DNA from: Alphaproteobacteria bacterium
GTDB taxonomy: Bacteria > Pseudomonadota > Alphaproteobacteria > Rhizobiales > Beijerinckiaceae
NCBI GenBank assembly: GCA_016869555.1
Contig: VGDY01000008.1
Location: forward strand, 1-54,726
Reading direction: 5' to 3'
Length of the DNA stretch: 54,726 nt
Below the pieces are notes generated by a model. It saw only the letters and a list, made by a program, of their open reading frames with translations, was not told where the DNA came from and made no database searches. The position numbers were made by a program, and so were the translations under genes. Each line of letters starts with the position of its first letter. Within the stretch, counting starts at the first letter, position 1. Shown here in pieces: positions 2,204 through 8,745 of the stretch.

Positions 2204-2698
2204 TTATGCCGACCGGCGACGAAACAACAGATGATCCAGGGAGATCGCGCCGGGCCCGCGGGCGATCAGCACGATGAGAATCGCCGCCCAATAGGCGTGG
2301 ACCGTCCACCATGCGTCGGGAAAGACGAAAATCTGGATGACCATCGTCATCATCAGAAGTCCGAACGCCGACAAGCGGGTCAGCAGCCCGATGACAAGCA
2401 GCAGCGGCAGAATGAATTCGACGGCGGTCGCCGCATAGGCGGCGAGCGTAGGCGAAATCAACGGCAGTTTATATTCATCGGCAAATAAGGCGAAGGTCGC
2501 GTCGCGGATCGACGTCGGGATTTGGAACGACAGATCCAGGCCGAAAATCTCGCTGCCGACAGTCGGTCCCTCGATCTTGGTTTGGCCGGAGACGAAGAAG
2601 GGATGCGCGGCAATGATCCGCAGAAAAAGTGCGATCAGAGAATAGGGGATCGCATCCAGCCAGCGCGCAATCGTTCTAACGATCTCCATCAGCCTCAA
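2204..2698 (-). CDS. DoxX-family membrane protein of the bufferin operon
   Basis: The 164-residue product is an integral membrane protein with about four hydrophobic segments (near residues 18-35, 78-92, 95-112 and 130-150) typical of DoxX/SURF4-like proteins, and has the family-like ALFLRIIAAHPFFVSGQTKI start. A DoxX-type gene is the usual last member of bufferin operons; its role there is not settled, and an electron-transfer or redox task linked to the post-translational modification is plausible. It begins 40 bp after bufC on the same strand. Confidence 0.85.
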   Translation of the reverse strand: MRLMEIVRTIARWLDAIPYSLIALFLRIIAAHPFFVSGQTKIEGPTVGSEIFGLDLSFQIPTSIRDATFALFADEYKLPLISPTLAAYAATAVEFILPLLLVIGLLTRLSAFGLLMMTMVIQIFVFPDAWWTVHAYWAAILIVLIARGPGAISLDHLLFRRRSA

Positions 2699-2738
2699 GC
2701 TCCATCTTGATCAGGCCGCGTCACGACAGTTTTGTCGT

Positions 2739-3512
2739 TCAGCGCGAGACGCAGATGGCGGTGAAAGCCTCCGCCAGGAAAAGCGCCTGCAGGCAGCCCG
2801 TCAGGTCGAAATCCGCCGCCACCCCGCTCGCCGCAGTCACGGCCTGTTCGAATGTTCCGCCTGCCTTAAGCGCATGCGCGAAGGCCGATCCGCCGACCGG
2901 GAGAAGCGCTACGGCAACCGCCAGTTCGGGACGGACGACGAGCGCCTCTTCGCCGCGGTCCAAATCCAGCGGCGCCCTGTCATCATCCGACATGTGCCGT
3001 CGCCAGATCGAAACGATGGGATAGTTCGAGGCGATGACATGCGTCGAAGGATGCAAGATCGCCGTTGCTTCCGCCAGCCGATCGAGAGGCAGGGCGCGGA
3101 TGACATCCATCGCCAGCGGCGCGGCGTCTTCGGCGTGATAGGCCTGGCCGACGGCATATTCGAGCCGCGCGACATCGGAAAGATAAGCAAGCTCGCGCGC
3201 CGGCTCGAAGCTAGCGACGAAAGTCGCAAAACTGTCCCCATATTCAAAAAGCACCGGAGTGCGCGGAAGGAATTCACGCATGTAGCAATGCGCCATGGCG
3301 CGGAAAAACTCATCGCCGACCAGCCGCCGGCAGACCGGAAAGCGCTCCGCCAGCGCATCGACCAGCCCGACGCATACATTGTTGCGATAGACGGCGAAGC
3401 GTCGCTCCGGCGCAAAGCCGTGGCGCGCTTCAAGGCCGTTCGGCGCCGGCAATTCGGGATCGAGCAACGCGCGGACGAACGCGCCTTGATCGAATTCCGC
3501 CGACAGCGTCAT
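2739..3512 (-). CDS. bufC: Bufferin maturation partner BufC (DUF2063 family)
   Basis: This 257-residue cytosolic protein has the DUF2063 signature near its N-terminus (RFAVYRNNV, residues about 38-46, then LVDALAERFPVCRRLVGDEFF) and a C-terminal RIPP-recognition-like region. In characterised bufferin and methanobactin systems, such a partner presents the precursor to the iron enzyme BufB/MbnB. The ATG at 3512 overlaps the bufB stop codon (ATGA), which indicates translational coupling; an earlier in-frame start inside bufB is less likely. With bufB just upstream and doxX downstream it completes the usual bufferin maturation set. Confidence 0.92.
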   Translation of the reverse strand: MTLSAEFDQGAFVRALLDPELPAPNGLEARHGFAPERRFAVYRNNVCVGLVDALAERFPVCRRLVGDEFFRAMAHCYMREFLPRTPVLFEYGDSFATFVASFEPARELAYLSDVARLEYAVGQAYHAEDAAPLAMDVIRALPLDRLAEATAILHPSTHVIASNYPIVSIWRRHMSDDDRAPLDLDRGEEALVVRPELAVAVALLPVGGSAFAHALKAGGTFEQAVTAASGVAADFDLTGCLQALFLAEAFTAICVSR

Positions 3513-4420
3513 GAGCGCATCCGATCCGGCGTTGTCTTCAACGGCAAGCGGTCTTTTTTGAGGAACCGCTCGGCGCGCCTGGCTTGTGCCGAGAGGAGCG
3601 GCCACGGCGGGATGTCATTGTCCCATTCGATCAGGGTCGCGATCGGTCCACGGCGCGCCAACGCGCGGTCGTAGAGACGCCAGACTTCCTCCTGAACGGG
3701 CGCGCAATGGGCGTCGATCAGCAAAGGATCGCCGGTCTCGTCGGAATCCTCGGCGTATCCGGCGAGATGGATTTCTTCGACATCGAGCATCGGGAAGGCG
3801 TCGATATAATCGTCAGCCGAAAAGCCGAGATTGACGGCGCTTACATAGGCGTTGGTCACGTCGAGAAGCAGTCGGCAATCCGTCCGGCGCACAATCTCGC
3901 GCAGGAATTCGATTTCGGAATAGTCCGAGGACTGGAACCGCAGATAGGCTGCGGGATTTTCTAGGAGGACACGCCTGCCGAGCGCCTCTTGAATGTCGTC
4001 TATATGGGCGACGACATGCGCCAATGTCGTCTTGTTATAGGGCAAAGGCAGTAAATCATTGAGAAAGCTCGCGCCCTGCGTCGACCAGGCGAGATGTTCC
4101 GAGAAGGCGGCAGGTTCGTAGCGTTCGACAAGAGACTTCACCCGGCGAAGGTGATCGCGGTCGAGGCGCCCGGCGCCGCCGATCGAAAGTCCGACGCCAT
4201 GGATCGACAGAGGATAGTCCCGGCGCAATCGCATGAGCTGCGCATGCGGCGGCCCTCCGGCGCCCATGTAATTTTCGGCGTGGACTTCGAAGAAGCCGAC
4301 ATCGGGCGCCGAGGCTTCGATGTCGGAAAAATGCACGTTCTTGAATCCCACCCCCGCGCCAGCCGGCAGCGCGGACGCCGCATGCGCGCGGGTTGGCTCG
4401 GGGGCGGAACGCGTTTCCAT
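3509..4420 (-). CDS. bufB: Bufferin maturase BufB, multinuclear non-haem iron oxidative enzyme (DUF692/MNIO)
   Basis: This 303-residue TIM-barrel enzyme is expected to modify cysteines of the precursor oxidatively; in characterised bufferins the product is a thiooxazole that binds copper. The iron-ligand motifs are all visible in order: HAENY (H47, E49, N50), SIHGVGLS (H74), SEHLAW (E108, H109), LLENPAAY (E154, N155), LLLDVTNAYV (D187, N190), IHLAGY (H218), DAHCAPV (D236, H238) and LIEWDNDIP (E265, D267). The length is typical. It starts 6 bp after bufA1 and overlaps bufC, so bufA1-bufB-bufC-doxX is one transcription unit. Confidence 0.95.
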   Translation of the reverse strand: METRSAPEPTRAHAASALPAGAGVGFKNVHFSDIEASAPDVGFFEVHAENYMGAGGPPHAQLMRLRRDYPLSIHGVGLSIGGAGRLDRDHLRRVKSLVERYEPAAFSEHLAWSTQGASFLNDLLPLPYNKTTLAHVVAHIDDIQEALGRRVLLENPAAYLRFQSSDYSEIEFLREIVRRTDCRLLLDVTNAYVSAVNLGFSADDYIDAFPMLDVEEIHLAGYAEDSDETGDPLLIDAHCAPVQEEVWRLYDRALARRGPIATLIEWDNDIPPWPLLSAQARRAERFLKKDRLPLKTTPDRMRS

Positions 4421-4426
4421 GCGGCC

Positions 4427-4708
4427 TTAGTTCGCGATGGGGTCGAGGCTGCCTTTGCCCTTGGGCGTCACGATGGAGGTGCATGTGCCCTTGGGAACAT
4501 ATTTCCACGCGCTGCCCTGATAGTCGGTCTTTGACGATCCTGCGCAGCTTGTTCCGGGACCGGCCGCGCAATCATTCTTGCCCTTTAGGGAGACGCCGAA
4601 GCACTTCTCCTGCTCGGCCTTGGCAGCCTTGGCCGTTTCGGCCAGCGAGCAGGCCGCGGCAAACGCGCCGGCGATAGCGAAGGCGGCGCAAAGCTTCTTG
4701 TCCGACAT
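4427..4708 (-). CDS. bufA1: Bufferin precursor of the BufA1 type (DUF2282 family)
   Basis: The 93-residue precursor has a signal peptide ([19 protein letters not shown], cleavage probably near residue 27). Its mature part holds four cysteines in the BufA1 arrangement: [13 protein letters not shown], then [20 protein letters not shown], then GTC. After modification by BufB/BufC it is expected to be exported and to bind copper in the periplasm. The ATG at 4708 was chosen because AGGGAGA precedes it by six bases. Its promoter box lies at 4816-4841. It is first in the operon with the maturation genes. Confidence 0.93.
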
Positions 4709-4815
4709 TTTGATCTCCCTCTGCTTCCGTGACGGATCCATTAGCCAGGCAATCAGTTGAATATCTGGCGTTCCTCAGCGCTTGCCCAAACGATCGCGCG
4801 CCTCTCAGGGGCCAA

Positions 4816-4841
4816 TTCGGCGCGACGACGCCAAAGGTTAC
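4816..4841 (-). promoter_or_regulatory. SigF-type ECF promoter of the bufA1 operon
   Basis: On the minus strand GTAACC (4836-4841) and CGAA (4816-4819) are separated by exactly 16 bases. This equals the promoter motif I recall for SigF of Caulobacter, whose regulon includes bufferin operons. It leaves a leader of about 100 nt before the bufA1 start. The sigma gene itself is transcribed divergently from 4986. The same motif with the same spacing precedes bufA2. Confidence 0.82.
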
Positions 4842-4985
4842 AACCGATATGGCCGGCAAGGCGAGTCTGCCAGATGGCGCGCCGACGGCTGATCGACTAA
4901 AACTGCGCTATCGGACCCCGTTGCTCCGGCGCAACATCGGCAGCGGCGGACCGAGCCAGGCAAATTCGCAGCGAACAGGGGCGAA

Positions 4986-5549
4986 TTGAGCGATAGGTTG
5001 AACGATCGAGAGTCTCGTTGGCGCGCGCTGATGGCGGCGTCGCAGGACGGCGATCATGCGGCCTATGCCGACCTCTTGACCGACCTCTTTCCTGTTTTGC
5101 GCCGCTTCGTCATGCGACGATGGCCGAATGCGCACGATACCGAAGATGTCGTTCAGGAAATCCTGGCGTCGATTCACACCGTGCGCCAGACATATGATCG
5201 AAGGCGTCCGTTTACGCCTTGGCTCATGACCATCGCCGCACGCCGCGTCGCCGACGCAGCGCGAAGCCGTTATGCGCGCGCCAACGAAACCACGGTCGAT
5301 GTTTTGCCTGAAACCTTTCAGGACGACGGCGCGAAATCCGAACAGGACGCCAGAGACGATCGGGAGGCCCTTATCCGGGCCATGGCGACCCTGCCGGCAG
5401 GCCAGCGACACGCGATCGAACTGATCAAGCTCCAGGGACTGTCGCTGGACGAGGCGGCTCGGGTTACGGGCAAGAGCGTCGGCTCGCTGAAAGTGGGAGT
5501 CCACAGGGCGATCAGAGCGATGCGTGAGGCGCTGGCGCGAGATGGCTAG
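4986..5549 (+). CDS. sigF: ECF-family RNA polymerase sigma factor, SigF-like
   Basis: This 187-residue sigma factor has region 2 (residues about 25-90, with DTEDVVQEIL and RPFTPWLMTIAARRV) and region 4 (about 125-182, with LPAGQRHAIELIKLQGLSLDEAARVTGKSVGSLKVGVHRA split as a helix-turn-helix). There is no C-terminal extension. The frame opens with TTG at 4986, with a weak AGGGG upstream; a later start is possible. Its stop overlaps the start of an NrsF-type anti-sigma gene, and bufferin genes lie on both sides. It most likely turns on both bufferin precursors under copper or related metal stress. No copy of its own promoter motif is seen upstream, so it may not be autoregulated. Confidence 0.9.
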   Translation: MSDRLNDRESRWRALMAASQDGDHAAYADLLTDLFPVLRRFVMRRWPNAHDTEDVVQEILASIHTVRQTYDRRRPFTPWLMTIAARRVADAARSRYARANETTVDVLPETFQDDGAKSEQDARDDREALIRAMATLPAGQRHAIELIKLQGLSLDEAARVTGKSVGSLKVGVHRAIRAMREALARDG

Positions 5550-6237
5550 GCGAATGTTGAACGAAGAACTGATCAAAACCCTGGCCGAGAATTGCGCGCC
5601 CATACGCCCGCTCGCGCATCCCGCGCGTCGCGCGCTCGTCTGGTTTGCGGTTTCGTTGTGCTACGTCGCCGTCGTGGTGGCCGCCATGGGCGTCAGGCCT
5701 GATTTTCTTGCCAAGGTCGCCGACCCGCGGTTTGCGACGGAATTGGCCGCGGCCTTCCTGACCAGCATCGTGGCCGCGGCAGGCGCGTTCAGCGCCGGAT
5801 GTCCGGCGCGACCGGTCTGGGAGCGGTTCGCCGCCGGAATTTTCCTGGCGGTCTGGGTGGGCGCTCTCGTCGTTGGATGCTGGAGGGATATTGACGCCTT
5901 TGGCCTGGCGGGGCTCCTGTCGCATTCGGACATTTACTGCCTCCCGACGATCCTTGCCATCAGCATACCGGCGGCGCTCTTGATCCTTTCGATGGTCAAG
6001 CGCGGCGCGCCCATCGCGCCATTCGTGACGATTGGTCTTGCGGCGCTCGCGTCGACAGCGCTGGCCGCGGCGGCCTTGCGTCTCTCCTTCAGACAGGACG
6101 CGGCGGTGTCGGTCTGCATCTGGCAGTTCGGCTCCGTCGTGCTGTTGACGGGGATCGCATCGCTTTTCGGCCGGGTCGTGCTGCATTGGACCATGCGCGA
6201 CGAGTTGATCGCGTCTTTTTTGGCGCATCGCCGCTGA
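5542..6237 (+). CDS. nrsF: NrsF-type anti-sigma factor (DUF1109), six membrane segments
   Basis: The 231-residue inner-membrane protein has a short cytoplasmic N-terminus (LNEELIKTLAENCAPIRPL) followed by six hydrophobic segments, as in DUF1109/NrsF proteins that hold SigF at the membrane. Five cysteines are visible (in SLCYV, SAGCPA, VVGCWRD, DIYCLP and SVCIW); in the Caulobacter homologue cysteines matter for metal sensing, so some of these may be the sensor. The ATG at 5542 overlaps the sigma factor stop. It converges on bufA2, whose stop is 84 bp away. Confidence 0.9.
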   Translation: MARRMLNEELIKTLAENCAPIRPLAHPARRALVWFAVSLCYVAVVVAAMGVRPDFLAKVADPRFATELAAAFLTSIVAAAGAFSAGCPARPVWERFAAGIFLAVWVGALVVGCWRDIDAFGLAGLLSHSDIYCLPTILAISIPAALLILSMVKRGAPIAPFVTIGLAALASTALAAAALRLSFRQDAAVSVCIWQFGSVVLLTGIASLFGRVVLHWTMRDELIASFLAHRR

Positions 6238-6321
6238 TGTTGCTTTCGGAGCGTTCCTGGCCCGGAAATCGAGGATCGGCGCGGAACGGAGGAAGAAAAC
6301 TCATCCGTCCGCGCCGCTCGC

Positions 6322-6588
6322 TCACATCTCGACGACCTTGCCGCCCTTGGCCTCGCAAGCCTGTGCCGATTTTTCCGGCAGCCACCCCTGACCCTTGCAG
6401 GCGTTCATGCCCTTGCAGGCGTTGTTCGCGGTCTTGCAGAGGCTCGTCCCCTTGCATGAGTTGATTCCGCCGCAATGGACGGACTTGCTCATTTTTTTGG
6501 CGAGCGCCGGCGACGTCGCGGCGCCGCTCAGAACGAGAGCGACCGCGGCGGCCGCCAGCGAGGCGCCCGAAACGATTTTGGCGTTCAT
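6322..6588 (-). CDS. bufA2: Bufferin-like precursor of the BufA2 type, six mature cysteines
   Basis: The 88-residue precursor has a signal peptide (residues 1-30, ending PALA) and a mature part with six cysteines at 39, 45, 51, 58, 64 and 78. Three of them sit in CKG triads (SCKG, ACKG, ACKG) and one in LCKT, followed by QGWLPEKS. This is the pattern of the 6/12-Cys family of periplasmic bufferin-type metallophores. The ATG at 6588 fits an AAGGAG site six bases upstream; the ATG at 6594 directly abuts the site. No bufB or bufC copy of its own lies next to it, so modification would need the bufBC pair at 2739-4420 or genes outside the window. Its promoter is at 6657-6682. Confidence 0.88.
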   Translation of the reverse strand: MNAKIVSGASLAAAAVALVLSGAATSPALAKKMSKSVHCGGINSCKGTSLCKTANNACKGMNACKGQGWLPEKSAQACEAKGGKVVEM

Positions 6589-6656
6589 TTTCATCTCCTT
6601 GCAATTCGCGCTCACAGGACGAGCGCTCCAGGCCCCATAGGAACCCGCCGACGCTA

Positions 6657-6682
6657 TTCGTCGCCGCAGCGAATAAGGTTAC
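6657..6682 (-). promoter_or_regulatory. SigF-type ECF promoter of bufA2
   Basis: On the minus strand GTAACC (6677-6682) and CGAA (6657-6660) are 16 bases apart, identical in sequence and spacing to the box before bufA1. The leader to the bufA2 start is about 70 nt. This places the second precursor under the same sigma factor. Confidence 0.82.
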
Positions 6683-6867: not shown

Positions 6868-8745
6868 TTGCTGAGAAAACTAGTTCGAATCGAAGATCGT
6901 TTCGATCGCGGAGTTGTAAAATTGGCGTCGTCGTTTGTCCCCCCGCTTACGGGGTTTTTGCGCAGCTGCCATCAAGAATTCGTCGTCGATGATTCGGGCG
7001 CGGTCGCCGATTACATCCCGGAACTGACGAGAGCGAATCCAGCTCATTTCGGCGTCAGCCTCGCAACGATCGATGGCTATATCTATGAAGTGGGCGACAG
7101 CGCAGCGCCTTTCACGATCCAGTCGATATCCAAGGCGTTTGTATTTGCGCTCGCCCTGGAAACGCTTGGCCACGAGCGCGTCGAATCGGTTATCGGCGTC
7201 GAACCCAGTGGGGAAGCCTTTAATTCGATCCGGCTGACGGGCGACAACAAGCCATTCAATCCAATGGTCAACGCGGGAGCAATCGCTTGTTCCGGCTTGA
7301 TCTATCAGCATGCGGGCGAAGGCGCTTTCGACCTTATTCATCGAACTTTGGGTCGCTTCGCCGGACGCAAACTCGACATCGACGAAGCAGTTTTCGCCTC
7401 CGAGCGGGCGACGGGCGACAGAAACCGCGCTATCGCATGGCTGCTGCGCAATTATTCGGTGCTTCGCGACGATGTCGACGCGGTTTTGGACGCCTATTTT
7501 CGTCAATGCGCCGTTCTCGTCACCGCGCGTGATCTCGCTGTGATGGCGGCGACGCTCGCCAACAGCGGTCGCAATCCGCTCACGGGCGACCAGATCATTT
7601 CTCCCTATGTCGTAGCGCGTACGCTCTCGGTGATGACGAGCTCCGGCATGTACGACTATGCCGGCGAGTGGATTTATCGGGTGGGGATTCCGGCGAAGAG
7701 CGGGGTCGGAGGCGGAATCATCGCCGCGCTGCCGGCGCAATTGGGCCTCGGCACATTTTCGCCCCGGCTCGATAGTCACGGCAACAGCGTCCGCGGACTC
7801 AAGGTCTGCGAGGCGCTATCGGCGCATTTCGGTTTGCATGTGCTCAATCGTAGCGATGATGTGCGCACCTGCATCATCAGCGATTACAACGCCGCGGGCA
7901 TTTCCTCGCGTCGTAACCGACAGAATGTCGAGCTTGCCATCCTTCAAGAGCGCGCCGGCGATATTCGGGTCATCGAACTCGTCGGCGCGCTCTCATTCGC
8001 CGCAATGGATTACGTCTCGCGTCGATTGGCCGGCGAAGGGCGTCAGGCCGAGCTGCTGATCTTGGATTTTCGACGCGTTCCGAGCGCGACCGCCGCCGCT
8101 GCGCGACTCCTCCGCGCCGCGCTCGCCGGCCTTGCCGACAGCGGCGCAAAAATCATCCTTGCTGGCTTCGAAAAGGACTCGCCGCTTTGGGAGGCCATAA
8201 ACGCCGCGGATGTCGCCTTGCCGAAGCTGCATCATTTCCCGCTGCTCGATGATGCGATCGAATGGGCCGAAGACCAGGTGATCTATCGCTTCGGCGGCTT
8301 CGAGGGCCTCGCCAAGACGACGCATCTCAGCGAGCAAGCCCTGCTCGCCGGGCTCACCCCGGACGAGATCGACCATATCGCGGCGATCGGGTTCGCGCGC
8401 GCGTTCAAAACAGGCGAGCGAATCATCGCCGCCGGCGATCCAGCCGCCTCGCTGTTCTTTCTGCAATGCGGTATGGTCAGCGTAAAGCTGCCCAGCGGCG
8501 CGCGTCTCGCGACGATCTCTCCGGGAATGGCCTTCGGCGAAATGGCGCTCATCGAACGCGAGCGCAGCGCTGACGTTTGGGCCGACACGGTGGTACAGTG
8601 CCTCGAACTGCCGCTGAACGCCTATGCTTCCTTCCGCAAGAGCTATCCAGAATGTGGAGAGCTCGTCATGCGAAATCTTGCGTCGCTATTGGCGAAGCGT
8701 TTGATGCTTGCAAACGCCAAAGTCGACCTGCTCAGCGCATATTGA
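6868..8745 (+). CDS. glsA: Glutaminase A fused to STAS and cyclic-nucleotide-binding domains
   Basis: The 625-residue protein hydrolyses glutamine to glutamate and ammonia through its N-terminal glutaminase domain (residues about 25-320). That domain has the serine-lysine motif of the beta-lactamase-like fold (QSISKAF), MVNAGAI, DRNRAIAWLL and a glycine-rich end (SGVGGGI). A STAS domain follows (about 348-440, IRVIELVGALSF), then a cNMP-binding domain (about 480-610, with FGEMAL and the RSADV phosphate cassette). This fusion is known in alphaproteobacteria and suggests control by a nucleotide or partner protein. The frame opens with TTG at 6868; TTG at 6922 is an alternative because the family usually starts close to the FLRSCHQEF region. 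Confidence 0.9.
   Translation: MLRKLVRIEDRFDRGVVKLASSFVPPLTGFLRSCHQEFVVDDSGAVADYIPELTRANPAHFGVSLATIDGYIYEVGDSAAPFTIQSISKAFVFALALETLGHERVESVIGVEPSGEAFNSIRLTGDNKPFNPMVNAGAIACSGLIYQHAGEGAFDLIHRTLGRFAGRKLDIDEAVFASERATGDRNRAIAWLLRNYSVLRDDVDAVLDAYFRQCAVLVTARDLAVMAATLANSGRNPLTGDQIISPYVVARTLSVMTSSGMYDYAGEWIYRVGIPAKSGVGGGIIAALPAQLGLGTFSPRLDSHGNSVRGLKVCEALSAHFGLHVLNRSDDVRTCIISDYNAAGISSRRNRQNVELAILQERAGDIRVIELVGALSFAAMDYVSRRLAGEGRQAELLILDFRRVPSATAAAARLLRAALAGLADSGAKIILAGFEKDSPLWEAINAADVALPKLHHFPLLDDAIEWAEDQVIYRFGGFEGLAKTTHLSEQALLAGLTPDEIDHIAAIGFARAFKTGERIIAAGDPAASLFFLQCGMVSVKLPSGARLATISPGMAFGEMALIERERSADVWADTVVQCLELPLNAYASFRKSYPECGELVMRNLASLLAKRLMLANAKVDLLSAY

Follow-up and report, generated by a model that had tools for sequence, protein, structure and literature searches.

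A SigF-NrsF locus with two bufferin precursor genes in an alphaproteobacterial genome, and a predicted trans-acting maturation pair for the orphan BufA2

Numerous genes for bufferin precursors are located away from any gene for an MNIO, the enzyme family that makes these copper-binding ribosomally synthesized and post-translationally modified peptides (RiPPs), and whether such precursors are modified, and by what, is an open question (PMC12452194). The same question is raised by a locus in contig VGDY01000008.1 of assembly GCA_016869555.1 (Alphaproteobacteria bacterium, Beijerinckiaceae), of which we analyzed positions 1 to 54,726 (hereafter the window; contig C8 of an assembly of 3.95 Mb in 295 contigs). 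Here a bufferin 1 operon, the sigma factor gene sigF with its anti-sigma partner nrsF, and a second precursor gene, bufA2, lie together, and bufA2 has no maturase gene beside it. The named relatives nearest by BufA2 are Methylocystis, and on that basis the genus is taken to be Methylocystis. We propose, with a probability of roughly 0.7, that SigF induces bufA2 and that its product is matured in trans by a Buf2-type enzyme pair on another contig, C4, rather than by the adjacent BufBC. The features of the locus are as follows.

2204..2686, minus strand: doxX-like membrane protein gene, last in the bufferin 1 operon (PF07681, 52.3 bits, cut-off 23.6)
2739..3512, minus strand: bufC, DUF2063 partner of the MNIO (PF09836, 89.3 bits, cut-off 27.2)
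3509..4420, minus strand: bufB, Buf1-type MNIO with the signature IEWDN (PF05114, 338.8 bits; MNIO_BufB, 371.9 bits, cut-off 310)
4427..4708, minus strand: bufA1, predicted DUF2282 bufferin precursor (PF10048, 87.5 bits, cut-off 22.4)
4816..4841, minus strand: predicted SigF promoter site of bufA1, exact GTAACC-N16-CGAA (pattern search)
4986..5549, plus strand: sigF, extracytoplasmic function (ECF) sigma factor (Sigma70_r2 and Sigma70_r4_2, over cut-off)
5545..6237, plus strand: nrsF, membrane anti-sigma factor (PF06532, 86.5 bits, cut-off 26.8)
6322..6594, minus strand: bufA2, Buf2 (Cys-Lys type) precursor without an adjoining maturase gene (NF050166, 98.3 bits, cut-off 60)
6657..6682, minus strand: predicted SigF promoter site of bufA2, exact GTAACC-N16-CGAA (pattern search)

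Predicted SigF control of both precursor genes

The genes lie where the initial annotation, made from the sequence letters, had placed them, over the Pfam cut-offs or, for BufA2, the NCBIfam cut-off (BufB being over both), and with bufA1 and bufA2 about 1.6 kb apart. Its count of four mature cysteines in BufA1 and six in BufA2 also agrees with our reading, and the six of BufA2 are invariant across 12 aligned BufA2 sequences. BufA1 has a Sec signal peptide, as judged by eye. The doxX and bufC products scored under the cut-offs of the NCBIfam models HvfX (49.6, cut-off 80) and HvfC (47.2, cut-off 142). The initial annotation did not include the two exact SigF sites, or the second BufA2 and the three MNIO genes besides bufB that the genome holds.

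The site found in the window is that described for SigF in Caulobacter (Kohler and others, PMC3511200). Exact matches occur twice in the window, heading bufA1 and bufA2, compared with 0.03 expected from shuffles; two exact matches were reached in 0 of 100 shuffles, and a chance pair was rejected. The whole genome contains four exact sites, the remaining two being inside genes on contigs C108 and C153.

The window layout was seen in 10 further genomes with fetched loci, and a scan of named genomes added four more. Three of these four hold both exact sites in one locus (L109, L111 and L113, one of them ending after bufC), and in the other the layout is split across two contigs, with the exact bufA2 site on one (L110) and the bufA1 site on the other (L196). 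Loci L108, L112 and L115 are repeats of genomes G297, G254 and G241 and were counted once. The resulting set of 15 layout-sharing genomes (11 with fetched loci, including that of the window, plus the four from the scan) carries both sites in exact form in 15/15 cases, and no layout locus was seen without a SigF site. When 14 bufA2 loci were anchored on the site, none of the 40 columns immediately upstream was invariant, compared with 7 of the 16 spacer columns and 10 of the 44 columns on the downstream side; the columns of the boxes are invariant by construction, because loci were selected by an exact match to the pattern. This footprint omits L113, which has too little upstream sequence, and the bufA1 footprint omits L110, whose bufA1 is on the other contig.

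The site marks particular BufA2 genes rather than the whole family, because no site with one mismatch or fewer was present at the second orphan BufA2 genes (of the type found on contig C99; 0/13 loci) or at the precursors of the type found on C4 (0/13). Outside the layout, all three orphan bufA2 loci of the Methylosinus genus group (G200, G174 and G146) have an exact site, and G215 and G089 each carry an orphan bufA2 that is divergent from sigF-nrsF and has a site with one mismatch. The orphan arrangement runs through a group of Methylocystis and recurs, in other layouts, in the Methylosinus genus group. BufA2 sequences from the 15 layout genomes formed one group (support of 97 in the Shimodaira-Hasegawa-like approximate likelihood ratio test, SH-aLRT) in a tree of only 90 columns that was poorly resolved, with no resolution of its deeper forks; because the tree is so short, repeated capture of bufA2 by SigF and a single origin are indistinguishable. 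That one sigma/anti-sigma switch would control two different precursors, as the initial annotation had suggested, is strongly supported by the exact sites before both genes in all layout genomes, together with the single NrsF match and single DUF2282 match (nrsF and bufA1 themselves) in the genome.

The window NrsF scored 30.7 bits against the NCBIfam equivalog AntiSigF_NrsF, under the cut-off of 300, and by this measure is a divergent NrsF rather than a Caulobacter-like equivalog. In the alignment, one Cys column common to canonical relatives is kept in the window and a second is Phe; these columns probably correspond to Caulobacter C131 and C181, and the row for L209, translated in the wrong frame, was disregarded. 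NrsF proteins of the window clade (window, L088 and L094) have extra cysteines besides the kept Cys column and the Phe column. Metal sensing by NrsF in this clade may differ from the canonical form.

Maturation enzymes for BufA2

The initial annotation had supposed a single BufBC set that matures both precursors. Four MNIO matches were found in the genome (window BufB, C4, C9 and C117), of which those of the window and C4 pass the BufB cut-off, and the window BufBC was therefore rejected as the only set. The C4 enzyme (MNIO_BufB, 377.1 bits, cut-off 310) belongs to an MNIO/DUF2063 pair at about 11.6-13.4 kb of G000:C4, the partner being matched by phmmer to other DUF2063-type partners, with no NCBIfam match. 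Adjoining this Buf2-type MNIO is a His-rich precursor (L009 4384-4635, minus strand) with six cysteines and a Buf2-like leader, which scored 22.9 bits against the BufA2 model, under its cut-off of 60, and possibly represents a separate precursor type. At least two precursor open reading frames (ORFs) of this type stand in a row in G114, G292 and G287 (L086, L065 and L198). The second BufA2 of the genome is on C99. Contamination of the assembly (8.61 percent) was considered as a source of foreign contigs and was rejected, because in trees the counterpart from a single relative, G297, is the neighbor of window BufB, of the C4 MNIO and of the C99 BufA2 alike.

The two enzyme types are distinguished by a signature around the catalytic Asp. 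Across 58 aligned MNIO sequences, EWD-N was present in 23/23 Buf1-linked enzymes, and ERD-D in 18 of 19 BufA2-linked enzymes (the remaining one has ERD-E) and in all 15 C4-type enzymes; the C9 enzyme has ERD-E. A C4-type ERD-D enzyme is present in 15/15 layout genomes. At the position of Phe250 in FonB, mapped by motif with FonB unaligned, the window BufB has Asn (EWDN) and the C4 enzyme Asp (ERDD). Asp at this site is reported for Cys-Lys (BufA2-type) enzymes, with a predicted contact to the substrate Lys, and motifs with a charged residue after Cys, including NACKG, are reported not to be processed by FonBC (PMC13097082); the window BufA2 carries NACKG. A wider named sample, which partly overlaps the 58-enzyme alignment, so that counts are not summed, gave Asp in 45, Ala in 12 and Gly in 2 of 59 readable BufA2-linked enzymes (2 of 61 were unreadable at the site), and Asn in 9, Val in 1 and Thr in 1 of 11 Buf1-linked enzymes; three Buf1-like enzymes without a linked precursor read Ser.

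Phylogeny gave the same division, with Buf1-linked enzymes joined (support 100/99) and including window BufB, and the C4-type enzymes nested inside the Buf2 clade. Leader sequences point to the C4 pair as well: 20 of 32 leader positions of the C4 precursor are identical to those of BufA2, compared with 8 of 32 for BufA1, and preliminary evidence has been reported for a contribution of the signal peptide to recognition by BufBC (PMC12452194). The signature and leader comparisons thus run against the supposed sharing of one maturation pair.

Variant arrangements in relatives

In G114, G282 and Methylocystis KS32, a complete bufA2-bufB2-bufC2 set is convergent to nrsF (the bufB2 frame of KS32 is short), and the window layout could arise by loss of bufB2-bufC2 from a locus of this kind. 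A draw of 298 genomes from the family listed 25 members of the genus, of which 23 have BufA2. MNIO types were read for fetched loci, and an ERD-type MNIO was read in 23/23 BufA2-bearing members; three of these (G017, G089 and G292) gave no DUF2282 match, and neither of the two members without BufA2 (G057 and G164) has an MNIO among the matches listed. Two genomes retain the SigF-associated bufA2 where no DUF2282 match was found. G146, of the Methylosinus genus group, has the orphan bufA2 with its exact site and an NrsF gene, and the MNIOs among the matches listed are two, one ERD-D and one with a low MbnB-like score. In G089, the one MNIO among the matches listed is ERD-D.

Both precursor types around one sigF-nrsF pair were also found in Sphingomonas. 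In Sphingomonas trueperi, doxX-bufA1, sigF-nrsF and bufA2-bufB-bufC form one locus, in which each precursor gene is preceded by GTAACC-N16-CGTA; this locus recurs in S. azotifigens, whose genome has another MNIO outside it. Sphingomonas loci L173 and L187/L211 have bufA1-doxX without its own bufB or bufC, and bufA2-bufB-bufC, around one sigF-nrsF. In Reyranella and related loci (L145, L147, L183 and L186), several BufA2-like ORFs in a row are followed by one MNIO whose selectivity site is Ala, not Asp.

Proposed mechanism and alternatives

Transcription, trans maturation, modification and copper binding, as set out here, are predictions from gene content and sequence comparison. Metal would inactivate NrsF, as is known in Caulobacter, and free SigF to transcribe both bufA1-bufB-bufC-doxX and the orphan bufA2, which would have a promoter to itself. 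The adjacent Buf1-type BufB/BufC would modify BufA1, and the Buf2-type MNIO/DUF2063 pair on C4, which presumably serves the local His-rich six-Cys precursor too, would modify BufA2 in trans. Sec would export both peptides to the periplasm, where they would bind copper. No SigF site was found at the C4 pair. The switch may govern a "substrate-only" regulon, inducing the orphan BufA2 without its maturase; one outside Buf2-type pair would serve three precursors (the local His-rich peptide, the second orphan BufA2 and the SigF-induced BufA2), and stress would shift which metallophore is made; we put the chances of this extension at about even.

Several observations weigh against the proposal of SigF induction and trans maturation. 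The C4 pair is distant from bufA2 and has no visible co-regulation with it, although this counts only mildly. The signature is not absolute, given that an F250D mutant of FonB still worked (PMC13097082), that 14 of the 59 BufA2-linked enzymes readable in the wider sample have Ala or Gly at this position, and that two divergent DUF2282-linked MNIOs (G190 and G234) read LERD-G, so that EWD-N is not universal among DUF2282-linked enzymes. (In G190, at L215 5852-7876 on the minus strand, one long ORF has matches to a DUF2282 precursor and to an MNIO, a possible fusion; in G234, at L216 4944-7699 on the plus strand, a long BufA1-like ORF adjoins an MNIO similar to that of G190.) In S. trueperi, a genome of unstated completeness, one MNIO match accompanies the two precursor types, and on that account one pair may serve both. 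The tandem order bufA2-bufA1-bufB-bufC-doxX in Methylocystis KS32 (L107 5099-8019) and Propionivibrio (L167 5923-9062) likewise indicates that Buf1-type pairs may handle BufA2. As for regulation, the Buf1-bearing contig G287:C29 (L214) has four exact SigF sites within 13 kb, and no NrsF match was found in genome G287. On contig C62 of G226, the Buf1 operon has an exact site before bufA1, but the nrsF there is truncated and neither sigF nor bufA2 lies beside it.

The S. trueperi and tandem loci, together with the close conserved linkage and common promoter site in the layout genomes, favor the view that the adjacent BufB/BufC matures both BufA1 and BufA2, giving one switch, one pair and two products; tandem precursor genes are known, and some MNIOs have been suggested to take more than one substrate (PMC12452194). 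We consider this unlikely, as the adjacent BufB has the Buf1 signature EWD-N, the leader of BufA1 differs from that of BufA2, every layout genome contains a Buf2-type pair, and the SigF-site bufA2 is kept in G146 and G089, where Buf1 machinery was not found. The tandem layout is not proof of shared maturation, because the KS32 and Propionivibrio genomes also hold ERD-D enzymes; no SigF site with one mismatch or fewer was found upstream of the KS32 tandem genes.

Loci with the full bufA2-bufB2-bufC2 set, and the G226 locus, where sigF and bufA2 are gone and nrsF is for the most part lost, would fit a further account in which BufA2 is a SigF-induced but unmodified periplasmic Cys-rich protein, the remnant of an operon that lost its enzymes. 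The invariance of the six cysteines, the retention of the promoter box where the DNA just upstream is not retained, and the presence in trans of a Buf2-type enzyme in 15/15 layout genomes make this improbable. Still less credible is an unused site, with bufA2 constitutive or under another regulator. The G287 contig lends itself to such an account, as does the lack of any site with one mismatch or fewer upstream of sigF itself, but the bufA2 site is exact in all 15 layout genomes and in the three orphan loci of the Methylosinus genus group, and the paralogs checked have none.

An orphan precursor with a stress promoter, a predicted trans enzyme and a non-cognate neighboring enzyme makes the trans-maturation question directly testable, and the natural deletions in G146 and G089, with S. 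trueperi as the mirror image, add to this. If the "substrate-only" regulon is real, stress would alter which metallophore the same enzyme makes.

Comparison with known systems

In Caulobacter, SigF is already known to control two bufferin operons of DUF2282/DUF692/DUF2063 composition (PMC3511200); copper induces both, and a sigF mutant is copper-sensitive (PMC8224329). The description of the system as little known therefore does not hold for this control, but does for the orphan arrangement. Caulobacter vibrioides (crescentus) resembles the window in having sigF-nrsF near bufA1-bufB-bufC-doxX, with the same site (PMC3511200). Its second operon, CC2907-CC2905, includes genes for an MNIO and a DUF2063 protein and, judging from locus numbers, is away from sigF, whereas the second precursor in the window is an orphan inside the sigF locus. 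We infer that the published Caulobacter "Buf2" is CC2907, which is listed as DUF2282 (PMC3511200); the BufA2 model NF050166 had no match in the Caulobacter control genome.

The window BufA2, with six cysteines and a score over the NF050166 cut-off, resembles the precursors of Buf2 (Buf_6/12Cys, Cys-Lys captophorin) clusters. Precursors apart from MNIO genes make up a sizeable part of both bufferin families, and one survey reports sigma/anti-sigma genes in Buf1, not Buf2, clusters (PMC12452194). Unlike those Buf2 clusters, sigF-nrsF adjoins the orphan bufA2 in the window, and adjoins bufA2-bufB2-bufC2 in G114, G282, KS32 and two Sphingomonas species. Legionella genomes with several precursors offer a likeness, as their precursors are unlinked to MNIO genes and modification by a distant MNIO has been proposed (PMC12452194); in the window, unlike Legionella, a conserved SigF site points to how the orphan is regulated, and a specific pair stands out as the likely trans enzyme. 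Among the bufferin and MNIO papers listed in literature searches, no title or abstract described the window arrangement, the founding paper (Leprevost 2024) lying outside that scope. What appears to be new here is the conserved orphan arrangement, the position of sigF-nrsF beside Buf2 genes, and the presence in S. trueperi of both precursor types around the sole MNIO found. The earlier idea of both types around a single MNIO thus fails in the window genome and describes S. trueperi.

Methanobactin, another MNIO-made copper-binding RiPP, differs in serving copper acquisition and in having no Sec signal peptide (PMC12452194). In the window genome its genes form a separate locus on contig C117 (L011, G000:C117 403-4730, minus strand), with MbnB at 441 bits and MbnC at 288 bits, both over cut-off. 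Because the genome also encodes these genes, the host, which, judging from its genus, is probably a copper-dependent methanotroph, would have MNIO peptides that acquire copper alongside others that buffer it. The C117 locus also includes a MATE-like transporter and an MbnA-like peptide, both identified by eye.

Other genes

The C9 MNIO (L010 4261-6001, minus strand, G000:C9) adjoins a membrane protein with a Cys-rich tail, TIGR04222-like by eye, and is near genes resembling pqqB, pqqC and pqqE. In the window, directly beyond the bufA2 promoter, positions 6868-8745 on the plus strand encode a glutaminase that includes a cyclic-nucleotide-binding domain and matches STAS weakly (under cut-off).

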